From the NCBI GenBank assembly GCA_913056165.1, contig CAJXMD010000014.1, forward strand, positions 1 through 43,007: 43,007 nt of DNA. The letters run 5' to 3'. The notes below the pieces were generated by a model. That model did no database searches. It was not told the DNA's origin and worked only from the letters and a program-made list of their open reading frames with translations. This DNA is from an uncultured Halieaceae bacterium. Its GTDB lineage: Bacteria > Pseudomonadota > Gammaproteobacteria > Pseudomonadales > Halieaceae. Made by a program: the position numbers and the translations under genes. Below are positions 11,665 through 26,240 of this stretch, piece by piece; within the stretch, counting starts at the first letter, position 1, and every line of letters starts with the position of its first letter.

Positions 11665-11949
11665 TCAGCTGAGAGGCGGGGCACGAGCTCTGAAGGAAGA
11701 AGTTGGTGCAACGGGGACCGCAGCGACAAGAGAGTTTGTCTCGGCGGTGTGAAGGTTTTCGACGGGGTGAACAACAACGCTTGAAGTGGCCGCGGATTGC
11801 TCGACAGAGCAATGGTGACACTCAACGTGGTTTTGGGTAAATCCACCAAGGGGATCATGCTCGACCGCATGAGCAGTATTGCCGACGACAAACAGCATCG
11901 CCGCGCAAAGCACCAATCGAGCATATTGTTTATAGCCGCGAAGCGTCAT
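11665..11949 (-). CDS. Small exported His/Cys protein, DUF2946-like
   Basis: 94 residues. An N-terminal signal peptide (ARLVLCAAMLFVVGNTAHA) is followed by a short mature part with HDPLGGFTQNHVECHHCSVEQ, a Cx2C pair flanked by histidines that looks like a metal-binding site. The C-terminal half is Ala/Val-rich with VPVAPTSSFRARAPP. Similar small DUF2946-type proteins sit next to heavy-metal TonB receptors. It is upstream of the ZnuD-like receptor in the same orientation, so it is probably co-transcribed and metal-linked. Family naming is by resemblance; function is not known. Confidence 0.7.
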   Translation of the reverse strand: MTLRGYKQYARLVLCAAMLFVVGNTAHAVEHDPLGGFTQNHVECHHCSVEQSAATSSVVVHPVENLHTAETNSLVAAVPVAPTSSFRARAPPLS

Positions 11950-12030
11950 CGTCAGACTGAACCCTTAGAATCAGTCACCGTAGTGGGGCCAGAATAGACC
12001 AGTCACGGCCGCCACCGCAACATCACCGGT

Positions 12031-13023
12031 TCAGTCGTAAGACAACTCTGTCGCCTTCCCCGAGAAGACGCGGTGCACGTAAAGGGTGTAGCCCAGAATG
12101 GCGGGCAGCGTCACGATTGCTCCCCAAAAAATGAATTGCAGTGACTCAGTGGCCGCGGCTGCATCCCACAGAGTCATGCGCCCAATCACGATGTCGGGAT
12201 AGATGCTGTAGGCGAGGCCAATCGCGGCCATCAGGCAAATCACCATAAGCGCCACAAAGATAAACCAGCCGTAGCCGGCGTGCAGCACGCGCGGCCGGCG
12301 CAGCATCCAGTCCATGCCCAAAATGGCCAAACCGCAGCTCATGGGGATAGGTAGCAGACCGATAGCGTCAGGCAGCTTGAACCAGCGATCAGCGATATCC
12401 TGACTCACCAAAGGCGTGGCGATAGACACCAAAAGCAGCGCAAAGGCCATAGGAGGTAGCGCCAGTCGGCACCAATGGGCGGCTTTGTCGAAGAGCTCGT
12501 CTTCGGTCTTGATCAGCAACCACGCGCCACCGAGCATGATGTAAAGGGCGGGCAATGTAAGGGAAATCAGCACAGAGAAGGCAAGGCTGACCGGATCGCC
12601 GGTGAGTCCAGTGATGTAAGCACCGAGCATCCAGCCCTGCGCCATGGACGCCATGAGCGATCCAAGCGCGAAAAGTTTATTCCACATAGGCTGTCGGTGA
12701 TCGGCAGATTTCACCCGGAAGTCAAAGGCAGCACCACGCAAAATAAGCCCGACCAACATAATGGTGACGGGGATATAAAGAGCAGTGAGAATAATGCCAT
12801 GGGCTTTCGGGAACGCAATCAGCAGCACACCTACGCCCATCACGATCCAGGTTTCGTTGGCATCCCAGAAAGGACCGATGGAGGCAATCATCACGTCCTT
12901 CTCAGCATCCGTGCCGAAGGGCAGCAACATGCCAACCCCCAAATCAAAACCATCGAGAATCACATACAGCAGCAGCGATAAGCCCATCGCTGATACGAAG
13001 AAAAGCGGCAGCGCTTCACTCAC
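12031..13023 (-). CDS. cydB: Cytochrome bd-type ubiquinol oxidase subunit II
   Basis: 330 residues with about eight to nine membrane helices and the family opening LLLYVILDGFDLGVGMLLPF. It begins at GTG 13023, overlapping the cydA stop by four bases, so the two subunits are translationally coupled. Subunit II supports the haem-bearing subunit I in the quinol-oxidising, oxygen-reducing complex of the inner membrane. The length and the partner's short Q loop fit the cyanide-insensitive (CioB) subtype. No CydX-like small gene follows. Confidence 0.95.
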   Translation of the reverse strand: MSEALPLFFVSAMGLSLLLYVILDGFDLGVGMLLPFGTDAEKDVMIASIGPFWDANETWIVMGVGVLLIAFPKAHGIILTALYIPVTIMLVGLILRGAAFDFRVKSADHRQPMWNKLFALGSLMASMAQGWMLGAYITGLTGDPVSLAFSVLISLTLPALYIMLGGAWLLIKTEDELFDKAAHWCRLALPPMAFALLLVSIATPLVSQDIADRWFKLPDAIGLLPIPMSCGLAILGMDWMLRRPRVLHAGYGWFIFVALMVICLMAAIGLAYSIYPDIVIGRMTLWDAAAATESLQFIFWGAIVTLPAILGYTLYVHRVFSGKATELSYD

Positions 13024-14372
13024 GCAGCGGTCCCCACCAACGGCGTACCCAGCGGGTTCGAGTCTTCTTCAAGTGACTTCGCCGGCTTCACCGCCATAAT
13101 CCGCAGCGCCTTCATGTAGGCAATCATCAGCGCCAGATACAGACCCACATAGCCAAACAGCGTGCCCGCGAGCGTTGCGGACGGATGCTGTGCAACCACC
13201 TCTGTCGTGGACACCAGACCCTGCACAATCCATGGCTGACGACCGATCTCGGTCACATACCATCCTGCAACGCTGGCCACCCAGCCGGAGAAGGTCATGA
13301 GCGATACCGAGCGCAGCGCCAAGCTGCTCAACTTGTCGCGACGAAATAGCTGCCACGCGCCCCACCACGACACCAAGAGCATCAGGGTGCCGACACCGGT
13401 CATCACGCGGAAGGACCAGAACACCGGCGCAACCGGAGGGTGGGCCTCAAAATCATTGAGGCCTTTGACCTCCCCCTCAAGATCGTGGGTCAAAATCAAG
13501 CTCGCCGCATACGGGATCTTGATTGCGAAGTGAGTTTCGCGCGCATCTTCATCGGGGAGGCCAATGAGGGTAAAACCAGCGCCTTGCTCGGTCTCCCAGA
13601 CCGCTTCCATTGCCGCCACTTTGGCGGGCTGATGTTCGAGGGTATTAAGACCATGAAGGTCGCCCGCTATTATCTGCAGCGGGATGACAATAGCCGCAGT
13701 GTAGATACCCGACTTGAGCACCATTTTGGTCGCCGGGCCATCCACGCCTTTTCGGATTCGGTAAGCACACACGCCAGCCACCAGGAAGGCCGAGGTCAAG
13801 AGACTTGCCAGCATCATGTGGGTAAAGCGATACGGGAACGAGGGATTAAAAATAATCGCCGCCCAGCTCTCTGCGAAGAATTGACCCTCGCTGATTTCAT
13901 AGCCCGCGGGGGTATGCATCCATGAGTTCAGGGCGAGAATCCAGAAGGCCGACAGCGAGGTACCGAACGCCACAAGAAAAGTTGAAATTAAATGGGTGCG
14001 ATTGGAGACGCGCTGCTTACCGAAAAGCATGATCCCGAGGAAGGATGCCTCAAGAAAGAACGCGGTGAGCACCTCGTAACCAAGTAGAGGGCCCGCGATG
14101 TTACCCGTCCGTTCCATAAAGCCCGGCCAGTTGGTGCCGAACTGGAAACTCATGGTAATGCCCGATACCACGCCCAATGCGAAGGTCAGCGCGTAGACTT
14201 TGACCCAAAAATTATAGGCGTGCTCCCAGTACATATCCTGGGTTTGGGTGAAGCGAACCCGAAAGAACAGCAAAAACCAGCCCAAACCGATCGTAATGGT
14301 CGGAAACAGGATATGAAAAGTGATGTTTGCAGCAAACTGAATGCGCGAGAGTACGAAAGGATCGAGTTCCAT
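13020..14372 (-). CDS. cydA: Cytochrome bd-type ubiquinol oxidase subunit I (CioA-like)
   Basis: 450 residues, shorter than the E. coli enzyme (about 520), with the short quinol-loop typical of CioA. The opening FVLSRIQFAANITFHILFPT carries the haem b595 histidine; RFTHMMLASLLTSAFLVAG carries the haem b558 histidine; and GRQPWIVQG is the conserved quinol-oxidase signature. It transfers electrons from ubiquinol to oxygen without proton pumping. It is first in a two-gene operon with cydB. No FNR/Anr site (TTGAT-N4-ATCAA) was seen upstream, so control by oxygen is not evident. Confidence 0.95.
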   Translation of the reverse strand: MELDPFVLSRIQFAANITFHILFPTITIGLGWFLLFFRVRFTQTQDMYWEHAYNFWVKVYALTFALGVVSGITMSFQFGTNWPGFMERTGNIAGPLLGYEVLTAFFLEASFLGIMLFGKQRVSNRTHLISTFLVAFGTSLSAFWILALNSWMHTPAGYEISEGQFFAESWAAIIFNPSFPYRFTHMMLASLLTSAFLVAGVCAYRIRKGVDGPATKMVLKSGIYTAAIVIPLQIIAGDLHGLNTLEHQPAKVAAMEAVWETEQGAGFTLIGLPDEDARETHFAIKIPYAASLILTHDLEGEVKGLNDFEAHPPVAPVFWSFRVMTGVGTLMLLVSWWGAWQLFRRDKLSSLALRSVSLMTFSGWVASVAGWYVTEIGRQPWIVQGLVSTTEVVAQHPSATLAGTLFGYVGLYLALMIAYMKALRIMAVKPAKSLEEDSNPLGTPLVGTAA

Positions 14373-14856: not shown

Positions 14857-16236
14857 ATGAATCAAGACGTTAAAACTCAATTTGCAGCGCGTGAGGATAC
14901 CAAAATCGCGTATCGGGTTTATGGATCTGGAGCAAAAGATCTAATAATCGTGCCAGGAATAATTTCCCATGTTGAATACGCGCATGAGTTGCCGGGTTAC
15001 AACGATTTTATTCAGCAGCTTACACCCCACTTCCGCATAATAGTTTTTGACAAAAGAGGTAACGGTTTATCGCAAAAACTCGCAGATTCCGCTCCAACTC
15101 TTGAGGAGCGCATGGATGATATAAGGTTGGTTTTAGATGCCGTTGGCTCCGAGAGAGCTACAGTGATGGGGGTATCTGAAGGTGGCTCTCTCAGCGCCCT
15201 GTTCGCCGCCATGTATCCGGAAAGAACAGAAAAGCTTATTTTATTCGGCGCTTTTGCCCACACACCTGGACTTGAGAAACTAAAGCGACTTCCCAATTTT
15301 ATTACAGGACTGCTAAAAAAGTTCATGGTCTGGAAGGCTGTGAAAAATGTCGAAAAAACATGGGGGAACGGGGAGTTCGTGCGCAAGGTACTTCCGTCCC
15401 GGATGCTAATAAACAACGAGCTGCGCCAAAAATTCAAGCACTTCGAGCTGGCATCTACCAATGCATCCAACATGGCAAAGATGATGTCACTGCTTGCAGA
15501 GATGGACGTTAGCGCTTTCCTCCGGGATGTAAGGTGTCCCACTCTGGTGATGCACTCCCACGATGACCGACTGATCCCATTCCAATATGGTCACGCGCTC
15601 CATGAAGGCATTGCAGACTCTGAGCTTATAGAGTTGTCTGACGCAGGTCACACTTACTTTATGTCAAGAGATCCTCGAATTGCTGATGAGATTATTTCTT
15701 TTGCAGCTATGGGACACTCTGCTTCTAACGAGTCTGGCCATGAAGGGCGGGTCCTTGCCACCGTAATGTTTAACGACATAGTCAGCTCTACCCGCCTTCA
15801 AGCCGATCTGGGCGACGAGGTATGGCGAATGAAGATTCGAAGCTTTGAGGCCATGTGCAAAAAAGAGATTAGTAATGCTGATGGTATTTTTATAAAAGGT
15901 CTTGGTGATGGTGTTCTAGCAGTATTTTCTGGTCCCGCTCGAGCTATTCGTTGCGCGATTGCCATAAAGGAGCAAGCCAAGGACCTAGACATTAGGCTTC
16001 GCACAGGTCTCCATGTAGGCGAGATTGAAAAGGACCAGTCCGATATTAGCGGAATCAATGTAAATTTAGCGTCCCGCATTCAGGGAGTTGCGTCGGCCGA
16101 TCAGGTCGTTGTTTCAGACGTGTTGAAGAGTTTAGCTTTTGGGTCTGGTCTCGAATTTAGCGAGCTTGGAGATTTTGAGCTAAAAGACTTTGACGGAAAG
16201 TGGCGACTGTCGGAAGCTAACGCAATAGCGGAATGA
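14857..16236 (+). CDS. Alpha/beta-hydrolase fused to class III nucleotide cyclase
   Basis: 459 residues in two domains. Residues 1-285 form an alpha/beta hydrolase with nucleophile S107 (GVSEGG), acid D236 (SHDDRLIP) and H265 (AGHTYF). Residues 295-455 form a class III adenylate/guanylate cyclase domain with metal ligands D307 (FNDIVSST) and D351 (KGLGDG), Lys K347, Asp D396 and N403-x3-R407. All residues needed for activity as a homodimer appear present; K347 and D396 point to ATP as substrate. The layout resembles mycobacterial Rv1900c-type proteins, in which the hydrolase may sense a lipid or ester ligand. No signal peptide or membrane segment is seen, so it is cytosolic. It heads the plus-strand signalling genes. 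Confidence 0.9.
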   Translation: MNQDVKTQFAAREDTKIAYRVYGSGAKDLIIVPGIISHVEYAHELPGYNDFIQQLTPHFRIIVFDKRGNGLSQKLADSAPTLEERMDDIRLVLDAVGSERATVMGVSEGGSLSALFAAMYPERTEKLILFGAFAHTPGLEKLKRLPNFITGLLKKFMVWKAVKNVEKTWGNGEFVRKVLPSRMLINNELRQKFKHFELASTNASNMAKMMSLLAEMDVSAFLRDVRCPTLVMHSHDDRLIPFQYGHALHEGIADSELIELSDAGHTYFMSRDPRIADEIISFAAMGHSASNESGHEGRVLATVMFNDIVSSTRLQADLGDEVWRMKIRSFEAMCKKEISNADGIFIKGLGDGVLAVFSGPARAIRCAIAIKEQAKDLDIRLRTGLHVGEIEKDQSDISGINVNLASRIQGVASADQVVVSDVLKSLAFGSGLEFSELGDFELKDFDGKWRLSEANAIAE

Positions 16237-16407
16237 TGTGGCCAAGGATGCACTTCTACTGCCAGAAGATTGATACTCCAATGGCCCTCTATATCTGTCA
16301 GCCAGGGTACATAAAGATACAGCGTTATCGCTAATGCGGTCACAATCAAGTTTTGTTATTGTTCATGACGTTCGCTCCCTCCGGCTACTGTCTTGATGAG
16401 GTGCTTC

Positions 16408-17022
16408 ATGCAAGATCTAAGTACAGAGTTCACTGAGGAACCGCTTGTCACAGAAACCATAGAGTGGCTCGACTCAGCGCTGGATGACACCCTCTTTTAT
16501 CATTCCCCCGAACACACTAAAGACGTGCTTCGACAATCTATCGAATTGGCGAGGGAGGATGGTCTAAATCAGCGAGATATGTTGTTGCTTGCAGTGGCTG
16601 CCGCTTTCCATGATGCGGGATTCATACAGCAGCGTCCTAAGAATGAGCCAATTGGCGCGAGCATGGCGGCTAAAGCTATGGCTGAATCAGGGCGGTTCAG
16701 CAAGGCTGAGCAAGAATTGGTTCAGCAGATGATTCTAGATACGCAATTGGTTTTGGAAGGGCCTGCCCAAATCTCAAATTCAAGGCTTTCGCCATGGTTG
16801 CTAGACGCCGACCTTGCTAATCTCGGCAGAGAGGATTTCTGGCTCCAAACAGAACTTTTAGCCAAGGAGCTCAATGTAGAAATGGAAGACATGATGCCCA
16901 TGACAAAAGCTCTTATGGCACGCCATGACTGGCAAAGTCCTGCAGGAAAGAAACTATTTGCGAGCAAGAAGGCAGAGAATCTTTTGGCTTTAGAGGCCAA
17001 GCTAGGTGAAGAAAATTCGTAA
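16408..17022 (+). CDS. HD-domain phosphohydrolase
   Basis: 204 residues from the ATG at 16408, which follows a GAGG ribosome site; in-frame TTG/ATG codons 12-15 bases upstream are less likely. The HD metal site shows H32/H36 (YHSPEHTKDV), H68-D69 (FHDAGF) and a later DADLANLG aspartate. HD proteins of this size hydrolyse nucleotides or related phosphoesters. Lying between two cyclase genes and a cyclic-nucleotide-binding gene, it may degrade or process the signal, but no phosphodiesterase-specific HD-GYP motif is present. The substrate is unknown. Confidence 0.85.
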   Translation: MQDLSTEFTEEPLVTETIEWLDSALDDTLFYHSPEHTKDVLRQSIELAREDGLNQRDMLLLAVAAAFHDAGFIQQRPKNEPIGASMAAKAMAESGRFSKAEQELVQQMILDTQLVLEGPAQISNSRLSPWLLDADLANLGREDFWLQTELLAKELNVEMEDMMPMTKALMARHDWQSPAGKKLFASKKAENLLALEAKLGEENS

Positions 17023-17068: not shown

Positions 17069-17881
17069 ATGAGTGGCATTGAGAGAAAACCGTCCCAAGC
17101 AAACCCGAAATTAAATGAAGTTACGATCGCTGCTGGTACTATTTTATTTTCAGAGGGCGACCGAGCCGATGCGATGTATATCGTACAGGCAGGCGAGATC
17201 GATATCGCCATCAACAAAGGTGCGCACACTCTAGCGACTCTGGAAAAGGGCGCTAGCTTTGGAGAGCAAGCTGTGGTCGGTACCAAGTACCGAATGGCGA
17301 CAGCAACTGCTAGAACGCAAGCAGTATGCTTGGAGATTCCAGCTGACTGGCTGGGTCGTCAACTCAGTACAGCACCACCACTTCTTAAAACAGTGTTTTC
17401 TGCACTTACCCTACAGTTACTCCAAAGAAATTACATCGCCTCACTCTTAAATAGCGGAGAAGGTGACGGCCATTTTGTGATTGATCCAGGAAGCCCCGCA
17501 GAGCACGCTTGGGACACCTTTACGAAAGGAACAACCTTAAATTCGATTTACTGCTCCGACGGAAGTGCTATACAAAATCAGCTTCTCGCTGGCAGGGCTC
17601 TGATCATCAGCTCTGGCAAGCTGGCAGTGCGACGTGGATCAGCTAATTGCGTTATGGGCGAGGGTGCTGTGGTGGGATTGGCAGAGGTGTTGGCGGGAGT
17701 GCCTTTTGATGATGCGGTCGACGTGCTGTCCTCTGTTAATGCATGGGCCGTAGATGGCGATTCAGCTTATACGCTCATTTCAAAACTCAACAAGGGCCTG
17801 TTCGGTGTTGTAAAGGGCTTTGTTGGGCGCGTGCTGGGAGATGGCAAATCGTTAGGACGACTAGCAAATCCGCCTCAGTGA
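17069..17881 (+). CDS. Cyclic-nucleotide-binding domain protein, two CNB folds
   Basis: 270 residues. Residues 12-125 form a cyclic-nucleotide-binding (Crp-type) fold with FGEQAVVGTKYRMATATA, in which E66 and R75 match the ribose- and phosphate-binding residues of the phosphate-binding cassette. Residues about 145-250 look like a second, degenerate CNB fold (KGTTLNSIYCSDG, LIISSGKLAV, GEGAVVGLAEVLAG) without the key Arg. No helix-turn-helix, kinase or membrane segment follows, so it resembles a PKA regulatory-type module more than a transcription factor. Its position between an HD protein and two cyclases suggests it reads their product. How it passes the signal on is not visible. Confidence 0.85.
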   Translation: MSGIERKPSQANPKLNEVTIAAGTILFSEGDRADAMYIVQAGEIDIAINKGAHTLATLEKGASFGEQAVVGTKYRMATATARTQAVCLEIPADWLGRQLSTAPPLLKTVFSALTLQLLQRNYIASLLNSGEGDGHFVIDPGSPAEHAWDTFTKGTTLNSIYCSDGSAIQNQLLAGRALIISSGKLAVRRGSANCVMGEGAVVGLAEVLAGVPFDDAVDVLSSVNAWAVDGDSAYTLISKLNKGLFGVVKGFVGRVLGDGKSLGRLANPPQ

Positions 17882-17950: not shown

Positions 17951-18961
17951 ATGGAAACGGATATTTTTGGCCAAGAAACCAAAATCTTAGCCGCGGCCAA
18001 GCAGCTCGTCGAAGATGGGCAGACATCGCCGGAAACATACACCGAGCTTCTAAATCACTACGGCAAGCTTCTTAGAACGACAAAGAGAATTATTAAACTC
18101 AGCGATAAGAACGAGCAGAGACTGAATCAATTGAAGGAAGAGGCGCAGGAAACAAACAAGCAGCTCGAAGGCATGTCAACGCAACTTTCAAAATTTCTCT
18201 CTCCGCAGCTTTACAGTTCTATCTTCTCAGGTTCCCGGGCAGGCACCCGCGTTACGAGACGAAAGAAGCTTACAGTCTTCTTTTCAGATTTATGCGGTTT
18301 TACAAATTTTGTCGAGAGCATGGAGTCGGAAGACGTAACAAGTCTCCTTAACCTGTATCTAGAAACAATGACAACAATAGCGCTGGACTATGGGGCTACC
18401 ATCGATAAATACATTGGAGATGGAATCATGCTCTTTTTTGGAGATCCAGAGACCAAAGGGCTGAAAGAAGACGCTACAAGTTGTGTGAAAATGGCTCTAG
18501 ATATGCTCAAAGAGCTCGATGACTTGTCTGACAAATGGGTTGACTACGGAATGAAAGAGCCTCTGCAAATGCGTATCGGCATAGATACTGGTTTTGCGAC
18601 AGTTGGCAATTTTGGTAGTGAATCACGGCTGGATTATACAGCCATCGGATCCGCTGTGAATCGTGCATCAAGATTGGAAACAGCCGCCGATCACGGATCA
18701 ATTTTCATATCTGAAGACACTTATAACTTAGTTAGAGAATCTATAGACGCGATCGAGTTGGAACCCATTCACCTTAAAGGGATTGGCGAGTTCAAGGCAC
18801 GCAAGGTTGTAGGCACCATCGATTCCGCATCGATATCCGTGAATCTTGGAAAAAGAAACCTGTCTCTTGTGTTGGATCGTCTATCAGAAACAGAGCTTGA
18901 AATGACGAAAAAAAGTTTACAGCAAGCCTTGCGGGAACTGGACAGCTTTTCTAAGCCATGA
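17951..18961 (+). CDS. Class III adenylate cyclase with N-terminal SiaD-like helical stalk
   Basis: 336 residues, no membrane segment. Residues 1-82 are helical and charged, with YGKLLRTTKRIIKLSDKNEQ as a central motif, resembling the stalk found in SiaD-type diguanylate cyclases and other enzymes linked to SiaC proteins. Residues 105-280 are a complete class III cyclase domain: metal ligands D113 (FFSDLCGFT) and D157 (DKYIGDG), ATP-selecting K153 and D228 (LDYTAIG), and N237-x3-R241. It is convergent with the siaB gene, 15 bp away. The inferred role is cAMP synthesis controlled by SiaC binding; no c-di-GMP cyclase (GGDEF) is present in the window. The stalk assignment rests on recall of the family, not an alignment. 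Confidence 0.9.
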   Translation: METDIFGQETKILAAAKQLVEDGQTSPETYTELLNHYGKLLRTTKRIIKLSDKNEQRLNQLKEEAQETNKQLEGMSTQLSKFLSPQLYSSIFSGSRAGTRVTRRKKLTVFFSDLCGFTNFVESMESEDVTSLLNLYLETMTTIALDYGATIDKYIGDGIMLFFGDPETKGLKEDATSCVKMALDMLKELDDLSDKWVDYGMKEPLQMRIGIDTGFATVGNFGSESRLDYTAIGSAVNRASRLETAADHGSIFISEDTYNLVRESIDAIELEPIHLKGIGEFKARKVVGTIDSASISVNLGKRNLSLVLDRLSETELEMTKKSLQQALRELDSFSKP

Positions 18962-18976
18962 CGATAAAATTTTGCC

Positions 18977-19522
18977 TCAACTGACCCAAGCTCTGTAAAC
19001 AAAAAGTGCTCCATTTTCCGACTCGATAAAGTCGAACTCGAACTTCTTTACTCGCCTCGCCATTTCTATGAAGCCCAAGCCAGCACCAGATGAATCTTCA
19101 GGTGGACCATCTCGCAGCCTTTGCTTATACAGGCTTCGCAACTCTTTCTGGTCCTTCACAGTAAGTTCTATCAGGCTGGCTTCCAAGCCATCTTTTTTTT
19201 CTGGATCTACGATATTTACAGCCTCAATAAGGAACCCGTCTTCAGCTATGCTTATTGCTACCGTGCCAATGCTATCTCCAGTCACTTGAGTTTTTTGATA
19301 AGAGTACCTAATGATATTCTGAGCCTGCTCAATAAATACACCAAAGACTCTCTTCGCAACGGCCTCTTCGGTCTCCTTGTCTGACAACTGATGTCTAACC
19401 GGATTTGAAATAGTTGTTAAAAGATCTTCGGTTAGTGGGCCTGAATAGCAGAAAAGTGTACGTCTACCCTGCATAAAGGTGTGCAGGGCGACAGTATCTT
19501 TAGTTTCTATATTTGTCAGCAT
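18977..19522 (-). CDS. siaB: SiaB-family protein kinase
   Basis: 181 residues. The GHKL-type ATP-binding fold is indicated by an N-box helix (EQAQNIIRYSYQ) and a glycine-rich GAGLGFIEMARR segment. SiaB of Pseudomonas aeruginosa (DUF6272) phosphorylates SiaC, opposing SiaA. Here it is last in the operon siaA-siaC-siaB, whereas Pseudomonas has siaA-siaB-siaC-siaD. The order and immediate neighbours identify it better than any single residue. It is cytosolic. Confidence 0.85.
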   Translation of the reverse strand: MLTNIETKDTVALHTFMQGRRTLFCYSGPLTEDLLTTISNPVRHQLSDKETEEAVAKRVFGVFIEQAQNIIRYSYQKTQVTGDSIGTVAISIAEDGFLIEAVNIVDPEKKDGLEASLIELTVKDQKELRSLYKQRLRDGPPEDSSGAGLGFIEMARRVKKFEFDFIESENGALFVYRAWVS

Positions 19523-19565
19523 AGTTCAAATTTCCGAATCTAGGTTTGCACACAATGCCGCTACT

Positions 19566-19946
19566 TCAGTCTTCTTCTTCCGACTCGACTACCACTAGCT
19601 TATAAGAGCAGGCAGTCATGTCTTCCTCAAAATCTTCTCCTGCCTCTTGCATTGTGTCATCCTCGGCACGGTAACGCCAATCAACAGATATGGCCTTCCC
19701 CCCAGACGCGCTCTCCTCCAGAAACTCAAAAAAGTCGAACAAAAATTTCGCAGATGAGCTATTGAAGTAATAGAGTTCAATCTCCACCTTGAATTCCTGT
19801 TCATCGCCGCTTAAACAATTTTCCAACTCCTGTAAAACAGGATCTGACCACTCTGAGATATTTTCTGGATAGCACTCTCCTCGTATCAAGCAGGATGTAG
19901 AGGTTAACTCTACGAGAGGCGTCCGCTGACTAGCTTCGAAAATCAT
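19566..19946 (-). CDS. siaC: SiaC-family regulatory phosphoprotein (DUF1987)
   Basis: 126 residues, acidic, with the family pattern FKVEIELYYFNSSSAKFLFDFFEFLEE. In Pseudomonas SiaC a Thr in this position (Thr68) is phosphorylated by SiaB and dephosphorylated by SiaA, and unphosphorylated SiaC binds and activates SiaD. Here the motif reads N62-S63-S64-S65, so a serine would be the phosphosite. The start overlaps the siaA stop (ATGA), which couples their translation. The expected target is the cyclase encoded opposite; this is inferred. Confidence 0.87.
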   Translation of the reverse strand: MIFEASQRTPLVELTSTSCLIRGECYPENISEWSDPVLQELENCLSGDEQEFKVEIELYYFNSSSAKFLFDFFEFLEESASGGKAISVDWRYRAEDDTMQEAGEDFEEDMTACSYKLVVVESEEED

Positions 19947-22195
19947 GTTGTTTCTCCAACAGCTTTGACAACGCTCGGTTCGGGTTCATCGTGTATTAGT
20001 GAAAATGCTAAGAGTGTGAGGTCGTCGCGGAAGGGTGCCCCACCTCGGTAAATGTTAACGCTACTCATAATATTGTCGACAATGCTTGCTGGCGTCTTGT
20101 CTGATGATTCCCTAAGAATCTTCAAAACTCGCCTCCGCCCAAAAGCAATAGGTTTTTCTGCAGGGCTCATAACGTCGGTGATACCGTCGGTCAGCATCAC
20201 AAAAGCACCGCGGGGAGATGCTATTTCATGAGTGGTAAAGTTAAAGTCAGAAGACATCCGCGTGGACCCGACGGATTTACGATTTCCACTGATTTCAGTG
20301 GCATCTACGCCGTCCACATTGAACAATGACGACTTCGCACCAGCAAATTCAAGCTTGCGCTCCTTCCGGTAGTAAATACACACACCACCATCAAATCCCT
20401 CCTCACTAGTGTTCTTTTTATCTGAGCGGGCCAAGGTCTCTTTCAGTAACTCATTGACTTGTGAAAGATAAGCGCCAGCACTTTGATAACGGTCAACATC
20501 AATAGCCTTATCTAGGTGACTTCTCGCGATGATTGATAAAAACGCCCCTGGAACCCCGTGCCCGGTGCAATCCACCACGGCTATGTAGACTCGATCCGGA
20601 TAATCTTTAATAAAGTAGATGTCACCACCCACTAAATCCCTCGGACGCCACTCGACGTTTATGTTGAAATCTCCAGGCATCGTCTTTGGGAGTAACGCGT
20701 TTTGGAGCTTGGCTGCATATCGGATGGAACTATTAATCTCGTCTTTGGCGGCGACAAGCTCATGAGTTCTGGCATCAATAAGTGTCGTGACTTCATCAGA
20801 CATCCTAGAGAAAGCCTTGGACATTACCTCTATTGACGCGCGTTCCTTATCCTCGTCGCTACCAGAGGACACGAGCTCCTGCATCGATTCGATTTCTTCT
20901 TTCAGCATTTCACGAGCTTGCCCCTCTAACTGGTCAGCTAAGAGGGCCATTTTTTCGAACATTATCCTGTCTCGCTCATCTCTCCTTTTGGCCCGCTCGA
21001 CCCTATGGGACTCGGCCTCAAGCCTGTGACTTCGATAATCTTCAATAGTCCTTTGAAGCCTACTTACTTCGTCATTATTAGAAGAAAAAAGTCCTGAGGT
21101 TGCGGAAGCAGCTGAAAGATCGCCTTGGCCCATCCTCTCAAGTAGATGAATTGCATCAATAATCCGTCTGAAAGAAGAAGTGGTCATTAGGAAAACGAGC
21201 CCTACAATCACTAAAGAAACCAGCGCAAAAGCAAGAAATGCTTTAGTTTCCTCTTGCTTTAAAGTCGCCAAAAGATCTGCCTGATCGTCAAAAATCAAAA
21301 TTCGCAGATCGCTGCCTCGGATGTCTTTACTAAAGGGAATAGAAGAAATCCGGGCTCCCTGCTCCTCTGCAATAAAGCTATAGGAAAATGTGCCGGTTTT
21401 CGCTGCATAATCTGTGCCAGCCTTAATCAATGTATTGAGCTCGGGCGGGCGCTCTTCATCGTAGTAATCATGGACCGTTAGCGCTCTCTCACCCATCAAA
21501 ATGGCTGTTGATATCTCAAAATTTTCAGAAAACTGTTCCAAGCCATCTATTACATTTCGTCCGACTACGACCAGCCCGATGATGGCGTCGTTTTCATCGA
21601 TTAGCGCAAAGGCAAGCGTGTCGTTAATGGAAACAGGTTTGCCACCACTGAGATCGTTAATTTGTGTGACACGCCGGACAGACCCATCTTCAAGACTATC
21701 CACAAACGAGCCAAACTTAAGGAAATAATCCGGCTGAGCAGACTCTTCACACGGATCCACGCCCACAAGATACAGGCTGGACTCGCAATACAATTGCAGT
21801 CCCCTTCGATCATAGGCAATCGCAAACGTGAGTAGTTCTTCCATGATTGCATCTGAAAAAACGCGGCCAAAGAGCTCCTCAGCAACCTCAATGTTTTTGT
21901 TTGTGATTGCGGCGAAAAGTGGATTAGGGCCAGTAGAACCGTCAAATCCGTTTAAAGATGGATCCCAGTAGCTGGCGTTTTTCTCAGAGCCATCCATAGG
22001 GTCATACGCCAGCAAATTGCTGACGAATTGCGTATCTAAGTTGCTAAACCAAGCAGAGGAATGCGCAGTCAAACTCTCGTCAGAGCTATAACGCTTATGC
22101 GCTGTATTCATTTGTGATGATGAGTATATATTTGCCAAAAAAAGGCACGCGATGCCCGCCAATATCACCGAAAGTATTTTGCTTTTGATCGTCAT
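19943..22195 (-). CDS. siaA: SiaA-family membrane sensor PP2C phosphatase
   Basis: 750 residues. TM1 is near residues 7-26, followed by a roughly 300-residue periplasmic sensor of Cache type, TM2 (FLAFALVSLVIVGLVFLMTT, about residue 324), a HAMP segment, a charged coiled coil and a SpoIIE/PP2C phosphatase domain from about residue 500. The phosphatase metal site is visible as VGGDIYF and VDCTGHGVPGAFLS, with a DGITDV motif later. In Pseudomonas SiaA senses an outside cue and dephosphorylates SiaC. It overlaps siaC and lies 16 bp after the TonB_C gene. The ligand of the sensor domain is unknown. Confidence 0.9.
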   Translation of the reverse strand: MTIKSKILSVILAGIACLFLANIYSSSQMNTAHKRYSSDESLTAHSSAWFSNLDTQFVSNLLAYDPMDGSEKNASYWDPSLNGFDGSTGPNPLFAAITNKNIEVAEELFGRVFSDAIMEELLTFAIAYDRRGLQLYCESSLYLVGVDPCEESAQPDYFLKFGSFVDSLEDGSVRRVTQINDLSGGKPVSINDTLAFALIDENDAIIGLVVVGRNVIDGLEQFSENFEISTAILMGERALTVHDYYDEERPPELNTLIKAGTDYAAKTGTFSYSFIAEEQGARISSIPFSKDIRGSDLRILIFDDQADLLATLKQEETKAFLAFALVSLVIVGLVFLMTTSSFRRIIDAIHLLERMGQGDLSAASATSGLFSSNNDEVSRLQRTIEDYRSHRLEAESHRVERAKRRDERDRIMFEKMALLADQLEGQAREMLKEEIESMQELVSSGSDEDKERASIEVMSKAFSRMSDEVTTLIDARTHELVAAKDEINSSIRYAAKLQNALLPKTMPGDFNINVEWRPRDLVGGDIYFIKDYPDRVYIAVVDCTGHGVPGAFLSIIARSHLDKAIDVDRYQSAGAYLSQVNELLKETLARSDKKNTSEEGFDGGVCIYYRKERKLEFAGAKSSLFNVDGVDATEISGNRKSVGSTRMSSDFNFTTHEIASPRGAFVMLTDGITDVMSPAEKPIAFGRRRVLKILRESSDKTPASIVDNIMSSVNIYRGGAPFRDDLTLLAFSLIHDEPEPSVVKAVGETT

Positions 22196-22211: not shown

Positions 22212-22601
22212 CTACTGGAGCGCGAAGGTAACTCTGACCTTTATGTCTTGCGTTGATACGCTGGCTCCATCTTCTTCCGGGACAGCAAATTTCATATTTC
22301 CGACGAACTTCATTGCTGCTTTGTCAAACATCAGACGCGGCTTACTCTCTACCACTCTAAGATCCAAAATTTCACCACTGGGTGACAGGTCAAATCCTAT
22401 CAACACATAACCCTCGACTCCCAAACGCTGTGCGCGTCGAGGGTATTCAAGAGCAGGGGACTTGATGATCTCGATATCTACCTCATTTCCGGAGGCAGTA
22501 GTGCCCTTTACTGACGCTCCGATAGCAGAGGTAGCGCCTAGCAAGCCTATGAAAAATATCGCTGGCAACACATTGATTTTATTTGGCTTTGTTAATTCCA
22601 T
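22212..22601 (-). CDS. Periplasmic TonB C-terminal-domain protein
   Basis: 129 residues from ATG 22601, which follows a GGGGGAAA ribosome site; an upstream ATG at 22649 is less likely. An N-terminal hydrophobic segment (INVLPAIFFIGLLGATSAIGA) could be a signal peptide or anchor. The rest is a TonB_C domain (ALEYPRRAQRLGVEGYVLIGFDLSPSGEILDLRVVES). The proline-rich spacer and long TM helix of true TonB are missing, so it is unlikely to energise receptors in the usual way. It is first in the sia operon, and may be a periplasmic partner of the SiaA sensor; this is speculation. Confidence 0.8.
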   Translation of the reverse strand: MELTKPNKINVLPAIFFIGLLGATSAIGASVKGTTASGNEVDIEIIKSPALEYPRRAQRLGVEGYVLIGFDLSPSGEILDLRVVESKPRLMFDKAAMKFVGNMKFAVPEEDGASVSTQDIKVRVTFALQ

Positions 22602-23243
22602 CTTTTCCCCCGAATCTGATTTATTTTTCAACCACAATCTCAGTATCAATGTATTGTCTCTGAGTGCGGCGGACGCCGTAATAACGGACTCCGCTGAGTA
22701 AACGCCTGTTTAAAATATCGGATGTGAAGGGGATCTCCCTTGGTGGTGATTCATTAGCCAAAGTCATTTGCTTGTTTCCCGGCAGGAGAGCCTTCAAATA
22801 CCCCCTAGACGTTACGTCTCCAATAGAAATTTTTCAAGATTTGTCTACGCTTACGGTGCAGAAATTCTAAGCGTCAGATCGATAGCTGGGCAGTCTTAGT
22901 ATCTAATGTCAAACAAATGCCTCAAACTGGTGCGTTTTGTCCCATTACGTGCCCTTATCCAAAACTTGACGCCACCCGGAATACGAGCCATTCGTGCACT
23001 TTTGGGGGTCGTATTGTGGGAGCACTCAGGCGGCCGGAAGGTTTAATTCTAGAACCTTTAAGCTCAACCAAGGCTTTTTTGTCTCAAGCTTAGCCGACAC
23101 CAAAATTGGTATTCGATCACCATAACAGTGAGGTTCGTATTGCAGTTTTTATAGAGATTTTATGGCTGAGGCGGTGTAGAGTAAGAACCAAGCGTCGGCA
23201 CAATGGCCGAGTTAAGGTGGCAAGTCATTGAAGGGAGGAAGCG
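22602..23243. other. Intergenic region between sia operon and orphan gene
   Basis: 642 bp between divergently transcribed genes. It contains an imperfect hairpin at 22669-22694 (GCGGA..CCGT AATA ACGG..TCCGC) in the probable sia leader or promoter area. No sigma-28, sigma-54, CRP or Fur site could be fixed, and no coding frame is convincing. It should hold the promoter of the sia operon and that of the orphan gene at 23244. Confidence 0.45.
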
Positions 23244-24578: not shown

Positions 24579-24777
24579 AAATCAGCCACCCGGGTTCTCA
24601 GGGCAGAAATGCTAACCCACTAGATCAAACCTCAACCTACCGACCCACAAACTCCAGAACTCCCTGAGATCTTTGGAGGTCTACCGACGGCAACGTCCTG
24701 CCGGTCATGACTCCATCTGACAAAACCGTAAGCGACGCTTGTCTGAAAATGAGGGTTTAAGCCAAGAAAGCCCACCT

Positions 24778-24793
24778 TGGTATATTTTTTGCA
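24778..24793 (+). promoter_or_regulatory. Sigma-54 promoter of the flagellin gene
   Basis: The sequence TGGTATATTTTTTGCA has GG and GC exactly 10 bases apart and a TTGCA -12 element, matching TGGCAC-N5-TTGCA. Transcription would start near 24804, leaving a leader of about 27 bases with a GAGGAAAT ribosome site before the TTG start. Sigma-54 control by FleQ-type activators is usual for flagellar genes in gammaproteobacteria. Confidence 0.75.
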
Positions 24794-24830
24794 TCTTCGA
24801 CCTAGGTGGGAAGCATTGAGGAAATTACCC

Positions 24831-26240
24831 TTGATCTCTTTAGGAAGCCTCGCAGATGCATCGATGCGCGCGCTGGGTGCTATAGCGAAATCTGAAAGAT
24901 CAGTTAATCAGGCTGCTGAGCGTCTGGCGACTGGCGAAAAAATCAATCGCGCAGCGGATGATGCAGCGGGTATGGCAATGGCTGCTCGCATGCAGTCACA
25001 AATTGTTGGTTTGCAAAAAGGCATACAAAATGGTCTAGACGGTATCAATCTAGTTCGCACTGCAGATTCAGTGCTGGGAGATTTAATTAGCATTAACCAC
25101 CGCATGCGCGAGCTTTATCTCCAGCAAGCCAACGGTACTCAGGGCTCATCTGAGGTTGCGATCTTGCAAAACGAAATTGATGCACTCCGAGTGTCCATGA
25201 CGGAGCTAGCGCAGCAAAGTGAATTTAATTCAGAGCCGCTCTTCATGGAGTCAAGGACAGTACCATTCACTGTAGGAGCCAACATTGACAATCAGATTTC
25301 GGTTGAACTGCCCAAGTTAGTAGAAACCATAGAGACCATAAAGTCTTTCGAGAACGGTGACTTCGAGGCAGATACGCCAGGCTCCTCGACGATTACTGGC
25401 TGGGACATTATGGAGCAGGCAATCATTTTTGGTACGGATTCTATCGCTGGCCACGTCACGCCAACGAACGATGTGGCAAATGGTACAGATCAAAATAACC
25501 CCAGCGCTCCAGGAAGTATGGAAGTCACGACCACTACCGCGCAGAAAAGTGAGGGATCGCAATCCGTTCGGCTGACCAGCTCAGGAATTACGACTAATAC
25601 CGGATATGACACGGTCAGGGGCCCTGTGCTGGTGAGCAAAGACCAGCTAAATATGAAGATAGGTGACACCGTCTCATTTGATTGGCGAGCACAGGGTGGT
25701 GAAGACAGTTACGACGTATACGCTTATCTATTGGATGTAAATACCGGCGAAACTGTGGAAATTCTTGACGATACGGGCACGACCACTAACTGGAAGTCAG
25801 AAAGCTTTACTATTACGAAAGATGGGACTTACAAGTTCGTTTTTGTTAGCGGCACGTATGATGCTACCGGGGGTCAAGCTGCTGGAGCTCAGCTTTTTGT
25901 CGACAATATCGTCGCATCAACAACAATTACGACATACGATTTCTCGCTTCCTACTGATACTCTCTCTGCTGTGGATCAGACAATCAACACCTTACTTGGA
26001 CATCGAGCGGAATTCGGAGCGGTGGTTAATCGAATAACACATGCTGTTGATTCTCTAACCCTTACAGGTATAAATCTCGAATCAAGTCATAGCGTCCTTA
26101 CAGACACGAATTATGCGAAGGAAAGTAGTAAGTTAGCCTCAGCATCGATCCTCAATCAAGCCGCAACTGGCGTTCTCCAACAGTCAAACGAGAATTCCAA
26201 ACGCATTCTGTCCAGCGTAATAAAATCTGTGGATGGTTGA
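24831..26240 (+). CDS. Flagellin with large jelly-roll-like central insertion
   Basis: 469 residues from TTG 24831, placed by a GAGGAAAT ribosome site, by the sigma-54 promoter upstream, and because R31-L32 then fall exactly where canonical flagellins have them (ERLATGEKINRAADDAAGMAM). Residues 1-155 are the D0/D1 N-terminal helices and residues 378-469 the C-terminal helices (HRAEFGAVVNRITHAVDSL, ILNQAATGVLQQSNENSK). Between them, residues about 172-366 look like a beta-sandwich: ENGDFEADTPG..GW at the start, and GAQLFVDNIVAS at the end, as in CBM- or DUF642-like domains. It is exported by the flagellar secretion system. No other flagellar structural gene is in the window. Confidence 0.92.
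   Translation: MISLGSLADASMRALGAIAKSERSVNQAAERLATGEKINRAADDAAGMAMAARMQSQIVGLQKGIQNGLDGINLVRTADSVLGDLISINHRMRELYLQQANGTQGSSEVAILQNEIDALRVSMTELAQQSEFNSEPLFMESRTVPFTVGANIDNQISVELPKLVETIETIKSFENGDFEADTPGSSTITGWDIMEQAIIFGTDSIAGHVTPTNDVANGTDQNNPSAPGSMEVTTTTAQKSEGSQSVRLTSSGITTNTGYDTVRGPVLVSKDQLNMKIGDTVSFDWRAQGGEDSYDVYAYLLDVNTGETVEILDDTGTTTNWKSESFTITKDGTYKFVFVSGTYDATGGQAAGAQLFVDNIVASTTITTYDFSLPTDTLSAVDQTINTLLGHRAEFGAVVNRITHAVDSLTLTGINLESSHSVLTDTNYAKESSKLASASILNQAATGVLQQSNENSKRILSSVIKSVDG

Follow-up and report, generated by a model that had tools for sequence, protein, structure and literature searches.

Partner switching of the Sia type has been described in Pseudomonas aeruginosa, where the PP2C phosphatase SiaA, the kinase SiaB, and the phosphoprotein SiaC govern the GGDEF-domain diguanylate cyclase SiaD; the papers considered here on this SiaABCD system concern cyclic di-GMP (c-di-GMP) (PMC7278518, together with the accessible parts of PMC8457831, PMC7647112, and PMC12834913). 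Unphosphorylated SiaC converts an inactive SiaD oligomer into an active dimer, and phosphorylation by SiaB blocks the binding (PMC7278518; PMC8457831, accessible part). In the crystal structure, SiaC contacts residues R74, K77, V78, R80, I81, S82, D83, R84, Y85, and Q86 and their neighbors on the stalk helix of SiaD, and residue T68 of SiaC is inserted between the SiaD stalks near S82 and Q86 (PMC8457831, accessible part). Here we analyze a homologous switch in a stretch of 43,007 nucleotides from an uncultured Halieaceae bacterium (contig CAJXMD010000014.1 of assembly GCA_913056165.1; hereafter the window), in which homologues of siaA, siaC, and siaB lie beside the gene of a class III nucleotide cyclase, the putative output of the switch.

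Other described systems resemble this arrangement. In HsbA-HsbD and BgrV-BgrR, a STAS-type partner protein likewise controls a nucleotide cyclase, whereas the outputs described in the accessible part of PMC8457831 are diguanylate cyclases. PP2C-STAS-kinase pathways of Campylobacterota have also been proposed, on the basis of gene clusters, to form a unit controlling a second-messenger enzyme; in the accessible part of PMC9239204, however, the proposed STAS targets are c-di-GMP enzymes and a chemoreceptor, and neither a class III adenylate cyclase nor a docking module is named. DUF1987-type proteins have been suggested, in general terms, to modulate 'adjacent proteins' in the accessible part of PMC8457831, the only paper of the literature searched in which DUF1987 occurs as a whole word. 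Among the papers listed in a literature search, judged by title and start of abstract, none dealt with a Sia-type switch with a cyclic AMP (cAMP) output; most subscription papers were outside the scope of this search, and prior publication in print is possible.

A Sia-type switch beside a class III cyclase

The siaA, siaC, and siaB homologues are all oriented leftward and the cyclase gene is on the other strand (Table 1), converging with siaB across a stop-to-stop spacer of 15 bp (18962-18976). The positions of the four open reading frames (ORFs) and this spacing were as reported in an initial annotation of the window, and the Pfam families agree, which confirms the presence of Sia switch genes beside a convergent class III cyclase. 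As in SiaABCD, the locus encodes a PP2C SiaA, a kinase SiaB, a phosphoprotein SiaC, and a candidate output enzyme with a SiaC-binding motif in its stalk. In contrast to SiaABCD, this enzyme is a class III cyclase encoded on the opposite strand and not a GGDEF diguanylate cyclase. The closest named relatives by SiaC are metagenome-assembled genomes (MAGs) of Halieaceae and Luminiphilus, with a top SiaC identity of 83% in the tree described below.

SiaC matched chain C of a solved structure (6kko_C, 8.6e-15) and scored 103.7 bits with PF09345 (cut-off of 24.5). Its predicted phospho-acceptor is Ser63, located within YFNSSSAK (NSSS, residues 62-65), since N62, S63, and S64 are aligned opposite N67, T68, and S69 of 6kko_C; the acceptor is a threonine (T68) in P. 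aeruginosa SiaC. In the 79 loci with a BLAST-found siaC ORF, among the 80 siaC loci surveyed below, the site was NSSS (73 loci), NSST (5), or NTSV (1). The acidic interface positions are kept, with E74, D105, and D109 replacing D79, E110, and D114. SiaB matched 6kko_A (4.2e-20), which was deposited as 'putative serine phosphatase' and is read here as SiaB because it was co-crystallized with SiaC 6kko_C. The protein scored 146.3 bits with the NCBIfam SiaB_fam_kinase subfamily (cut-off of 85) and harbors the motifs EQAQN at position 65 and GAGLG at position 146; an E-x-x-[QH]-N box is present in 74 of the 77 siaB ORFs of the 80 loci.

The designation of SiaA as a PP2C sensor was borne out for its PP2C domain, detected by PF07228 and by 6k4e (3.7e-41), an entry deposited as 'putative serine phosphatase' and taken here as the SiaA PP2C domain. 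The sensing role is inferred, since the N-terminal half has no Pfam match; this half would presumably provide membrane anchoring and sensing. A small TonB_C-domain protein (22212-22649) adjoins siaA. Of the 80 siaC loci, 25 contain a homologue, including loci in which siaA is apart from siaBC (such as L079 and L085), and the protein may be part of the sensing side.

The cyclase harbors PF00211 as its sole Pfam domain, without GGDEF domain, and SiaD model NF038266 gave no match at E 0.001. Its top solved relative is CyaB (3r5g; 5.9e-56, 193 bits over residues 101-279), which we take to be an adenylate cyclase of P. aeruginosa. The two enzymes are alike in the catalytic domain, with the same ATP-type residues in the alignment, and differ by the siaC-linked N-terminal module of the 336-residue window cyclase. 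All six ATP-type residues listed in the initial annotation (D113, K153, D157, D228, N237, and R241) are present, and they are invariant in 30 aligned siaC-linked cyclases. Presumably, D113 and D157 are involved in metal binding, K153 and D228 form the ATP-type substrate pair, and N237 and R241 contribute to the transition state. These residues predict an active enzyme with cAMP as its product.

The window contig contains no GGDEF gene, in agreement with the reported absence of a GGDEF-type SiaD beside the switch. As for a SiaD elsewhere in the source genome (2.43 Mb, 86.7% complete, about 13% missing), the assembly encodes a single GGDEF domain, on a different contig, in a protein devoid of the N-terminal module described below; the cyclase is the sole module match in this assembly. 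Within the limits of the assembly, a SiaD elsewhere in the genome is thus rejected.

Table 1. Coordinates of the switch genes, the cyclase, and its N-terminal features in the window.
Feature	Position	Strand	Details
Class III nucleotide cyclase, inferred switch output	17951..18961	+	336 aa; PF00211 (Guanylate_cyc) 7e-26
Cyclase N-terminal candidate SiaC-docking module	17951..18160	+	residues 1-70; alignment A3, cyclase-only HMM, AlphaFold helices
Candidate SiaC-binding motif RIIKLSDKNEQRL of cyclase	18086..18124	+	residues 46-58
siaB homologue, SiaB-family protein kinase	18977..19522	-	181 aa; DUF6272 1.3e-31
siaC homologue, STAS-like switch phosphoprotein	19566..19946	-	126 aa; SiaC PF09345 6.3e-30
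siaA homologue, PP2C (SpoIIE) phosphatase	19943..22195	-	750 aa; SpoIIE PF07228 1.8e-17, residues 533-731

A candidate SiaC-docking module at the cyclase N-terminus

The N-terminus of the cyclase reads TTKRIIKLSDKNEQRL. Within its first ~70 residues, RIIKLSDKNEQRL aligns with the SiaC-binding motif of the Pseudomonas SiaD stalk, which reads LEKVARISDRYQQMM in P. aeruginosa (7e6g). Eight contact positions are kept or similar, R46, I47, K49, L50, S51, D52, K53, and E55 of the cyclase corresponding to K77, V78, R80, I81, S82, D83, R84, and Q86 of SiaD. The pair S51-D52 is aligned to S82-D83, and D52 is invariant both in alignment A3, which combines the cyclase N-terminus with other siaC-linked proteins, and in alignment A5. 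AlphaFold (28-row alignment) predicted a short helix (residues 7-21) followed by a single long helix (27-80) containing the motif. At the sequence level, the cyclase thus appears to possess a stalk helix with a SiaC-binding motif.

To assess the specificity of the module, a hidden Markov model (HMM) was built solely from the N-termini of siaC-linked cyclases (43 plus that of the window) and used to search 4282 ORFs, comprising 3736 from the 80 siaC loci and from 11 loci of a class survey and 546 from control loci. Beyond cyclases, this cyclase-only HMM picked up proteins of the GGDEF, HD-domain, HATPase (kinase-type), and PP2C types, each of them at siaC. Non-training matches with E < 1e-4 were all located at most 1061 bp from a siaC ORF, the match of L100 being counted beside a siaC match from the scan, an ORF that BLAST did not assign. 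The weakest of these matches was 2.8e-5 and the next ORF was at 0.23. The matches include two GGDEF proteins of the SiaD type that contain the mapped motif, one in L015 (2.5e-5), which is above the NCBIfam SiaD cut-off, and one in L020 (2.8e-5).

None of the 546 control ORFs was matched by the cyclase-only HMM, and the module was absent from 30 distinct control class III cyclases, chosen by similarity to the window cyclase and not via siaC. Four of the 30 reach an edge of their DNA stretch, including the closest by sequence (G087, L138), which is cut by a contig end and displays no docking motif in the 69 residues remaining before the catalytic motif. Among GGDEF-motif ORFs of the 80 loci, a count that leaves aside the GGDEF domain called by Pfam in L125, the module was present in all seven located beside siaC and in none of the eight located at least 2785 bp away. 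With either HMM at E 0.001, the module was detected in 72 of 731 ORFs at most 1.5 kb from siaC versus 3 of 2362 ORFs located farther, training cyclases included; the three distant ORFs are the cyclases of siaC loci L080, L083, and L107.

Distribution of the module among siaC loci and genomes

The 80 siaC loci are the best 80 of 258 relatives found by scanning genome contigs with SiaC alignment A2, and the counts therefore lean to the kin of the window. A module protein is encoded in 73 loci. It is a class III cyclase in 46 of these, 43 of which trained the HMM. The remaining 27 comprise proteins with a GGDEF motif (7), GAF/HD proteins (3), HATPase_c proteins (11), longer HATPase proteins (4), and proteins without Pfam match (2). 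In the GAF/HD type, L098 and L130 match HD_5, which we take to be HD-GYP, and L133 is an incomplete ORF with a weak HD match. In the HATPase_c type, HisKA is also found in L110, L115, L131, and, weakly, L099. In the longer HATPase type, a CheX match fell short of the Pfam cut-off (L113 and L128 scanned); L102 and L122 were assigned to this type solely from their length and their position in the SiaC tree. The last two proteins (L093:7802-8704 and L101:5202-6116) are located beside siaC in Campylobacterota records and the rest of their sequence has no Pfam match; they possibly represent a new output type. In the class survey, a module protein was detected by the cyclase-only HMM in 9 of the 11 siaC loci, including a PP2C protein (L018). 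The genome harboring the latter locus (G218) has three siaC genes, one with this PP2C protein as output, one with an HATPase with a sub-threshold CheX match (L013), and one in a locus without module match (L016). In L166, a siaB-like ORF was found with a weakly module-like protein.

Two loci combine outputs. In L107 (L107:10369-13642, from a Magnetospira MAG), a single siaC precedes two outputs that both bear the module, one being an HD_5 protein and the other an adenylate cyclase. In L125 (L125:10467-11966, Desulfobacterales), a single protein carries, behind the module, both a class III cyclase domain and a GGDEF domain.

In 31 loci the cyclase gene converges on siaBC, with a gap of -4 to 75 bp, and in the other 15 the two are co-directional. 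The convergent loci are mostly from marine Gammaproteobacteria records; L067, L068, and L078 are labelled as other groups, with binning errors being possible. Co-directional loci are labelled Thermodesulfobacteriota, Alphaproteobacteria, Campylobacterota, other Gammaproteobacteria, and 'Deltaproteobacteria', and 12 of these 15 cyclases start at most 252 bp from the siaC end. The mobile part is siaA, found beyond the cyclase in several loci (including L078, L079, L082, L084, L085, and L091) with siaBC and the cyclase still together.

SiaC is encoded by 10 of 369 genomes of the class. The module (A3, E <= 0.01) was detected in 15 genomes of the class, corresponding to 9 of the 10 SiaC-positive genomes (G121 lacking it) and 6 of the 359 SiaC-negative genomes (p 1.6e-13 by a Fisher test which, as those below, ignores genome relatedness and is indicative only). 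Leaving out the four SiaC-positive genomes that gave rows to A3, the module was detected in 5 of 6 SiaC-positive genomes, versus 6 of 359 (p 5e-8). Four of the six SiaC-negative genomes had matches of 0.006-0.009, and the match of G032 was intermediate (8e-6, partial, with an internal stop); the sixth, G177, is considered below. In a set of 58 close relatives, 37 belong to the genus of the window. SiaC and the module (E 0.001) were found in the same 10 of these 37 genomes, and neither was found in the other 27 (10/10 versus 0/27, p 2.9e-9, the matches being close kin of the model rows). The SiaC-positive close relatives outside the genus (G162 and G409) have GGDEF proteins beside siaC that are below the module threshold of E 0.001. 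G162, a genome of the same order, passes the NCBIfam equivalog cut-offs for SiaA, SiaB, SiaC, and SiaD.

In a SiaC tree of 91 rows, based on few columns and with unresolved deep forks, the window is located in a 35-row group (34 loci with an adenylate cyclase and 1 incomplete locus) with a support of 100/100. The output labels required 18 changes on this tree, for a minimum of 6; for the adenylate cyclase output, at least 6 changes are imposed by branches with strong support. The exact number of output changes is unsure because of the few columns and the long branches. Together, the SiaD-type motif at the N-terminus, the linkage of siaBC to the cyclase, and the co-occurrence of SiaC and the module support, at the level of comparative genomics, a functional link between switch and cyclase, as the initial annotation had proposed in designating the cyclase as the apparent output.

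Proposed mechanism, alternatives, and context

The reading that best explains the data as a whole, and in our judgment a likely one, is a Sia-type switch whose output is cAMP and in which SiaC docks on the cyclase stalk. SiaA, as a PP2C phosphatase, and SiaB, as an HATPase-type kinase, would determine whether SiaC is phosphorylated at Ser63. In its unphosphorylated form, SiaC would bind the SiaD-like motif that the cyclase carries in its long N-terminal stalk helix, stabilize a parallel dimer, and bring the catalytic domains together, leading to increased cAMP synthesis; phosphorylation would free SiaC from the cyclase. The complex is predicted to contain two cyclase and two SiaC molecules, rather than two and four, because the cyclase has one motif and SiaD has two. 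Physical docking is predicted from the motif, and stimulation, rather than inhibition, would be expected by analogy with SiaD.

Several observations weigh against this explanation. Presence of the module in the 43 training cyclases follows from how the HMM was built, and the linkage within one clade is partly due to shared ancestry. No module protein was found in 7 of the 80 loci (L095, L096, L097, L108, L118, L137, and L063, whose contig ends inside siaB), and L016 and L022 of the class survey had no match with the cyclase-only HMM. SiaC-negative genome G177 encodes two strong module proteins (3.0e-16 and 3.5e-16; L165:8973-9926 and 11905-13260), and a simple motif search revealed no SiaC-like ORF in the L165 stretch. 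The NCBIfam equivalog cut-offs (NF038263, NF038264, and NF038265) were missed by SiaA (174.7 for 700 bits), SiaB (93.1 for 225), and SiaC (78 for 150). The cyclase has a single SiaC-binding motif versus two in SiaD, and contacts are changed both in SiaC (R103 to T98, L107 to A102, and I71 to A66) and in the cyclase, where T, N, R, N, and Q replace SiaD residues R74, Y85, M88, R90, and D91, respectively. Since several contacts are changed on both proteins, the details of the SiaC-cyclase interface must differ from those of SiaC-SiaD. The AlphaFold model of the cyclase, a monomer, is of moderate quality (mean predicted local distance difference test, pLDDT, of 77; predicted template modeling score, pTM, of 0.59), with mean pLDDT values of 64 to 81 in the 10-residue blocks of residues 1-70 and of 50 in block 71-80. 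Finally, a plain sequence search of the PDB with the cyclase N-terminus (98 residues) did not find SiaD (best E of 0.44), and the link to SiaD was therefore tested at the profile level. The link is visible only at this level and via siaC-adjacent intermediates, the likeness to canonical SiaD being modest (2.5e-5 and 2.8e-5).

The same wiring might operate with the opposite sign, SiaC in one phosphorylation state inhibiting the cyclase or locking an inactive form and thereby decreasing cAMP. The module is located in a helical stalk preceding the catalytic domain, a position from which the sequence cannot separate activation from inhibition. However, class III cyclases need dimers. In addition, the SiaD dimer of P. 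aeruginosa is activated by unphosphorylated SiaC via stalk stabilization (PMC7278518; PMC8457831, accessible part), and we regard inhibition as unlikely. It is very doubtful that the cyclase is a mere neighbor, with a gene order due to shared ancestry and SiaC acting on another target, such as the lone GGDEF protein or an unknown partner. The arrangement is indeed largely vertical among the closest relatives, and the genome, of which about 13% is missing, does encode one GGDEF protein. Nonetheless, the motif is on the cyclase and not on the GGDEF protein, 15 loci, including those of Thermodesulfobacteriota, Alphaproteobacteria, and Campylobacterota, show the linkage with the opposite orientation of the cyclase, and siaBC and the cyclase stay together in several loci in which siaA shifts place.

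A coiled coil ahead of the catalytic domain is found in many class III cyclases and GGDEF proteins, and the shared N-terminal segment, which is helical and is present in G177 without SiaC match, might be a generic dimerization coiled coil rather than a SiaC dock. This is highly improbable given that the segment is absent from the 30 control cyclases and the 8 distant GGDEF ORFs, is concentrated near siaC (72/731 ORFs, training cyclases included, versus 3/2362 farther), and coincides with the mapped SiaC contacts in SiaD. It would likewise be surprising if the enzyme were a guanylate cyclase with cyclic GMP as output: the substrate is predicted from sequence, but the K153/D228 pair is invariant in the 30 aligned sequences and CyaB is the best solved relative.

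Beyond the docking of SiaC on the window cyclase, it is probable that SiaC is a general plug and that the ~70-residue N-terminal helical module is a portable socket on adenylate cyclases, diguanylate cyclases, HD (HD-GYP-type) proteins, histidine-kinase-type ATPases, and PP2C proteins. One Ser/Thr switch would thereby have been passed between outputs of the cAMP, c-di-GMP, and two-component types. This proposal is set against the view of SiaC as a regulator of diguanylate cyclases that was rewired once. In its terms, L107 has two sockets for one siaC, and in L125 one socket precedes both an adenylate cyclase and a GGDEF domain.

Upstream of the cyclase and on the same strand, the window contains genes for an alpha/beta hydrolase fused to a weak class III cyclase domain (14857-16236), an HD protein (16393-17022), and a cyclic nucleotide monophosphate (cNMP)-binding protein (17069-17881, +), the last located 69 bp from the cyclase. 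The cNMP-binding protein was rejected as a dedicated effector. Its homologues were found in the flanks of only 5 of the 80 loci (L069, L072, L076, L077, and, weakly, L135), none beside the cyclase, and L058-L062 showed no homologue. Three cNMP-binding matches are present in the genome. On the other side, a flagellin-like protein, as read from its sequence alone, is encoded near the switch (24777-26240).

If the proposed mechanism is true, a partner switch that is controlled by phosphorylation and has been described in c-di-GMP signaling would also govern cAMP via a recognizable docking module. The module would provide a sequence-based predictor of the targets of DUF1987/SiaC proteins and a natural design for placing enzymes under the control of a Ser/Thr switch. 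For marine bacteria of the Halieaceae type, the locus would offer a testable input pathway for cAMP.

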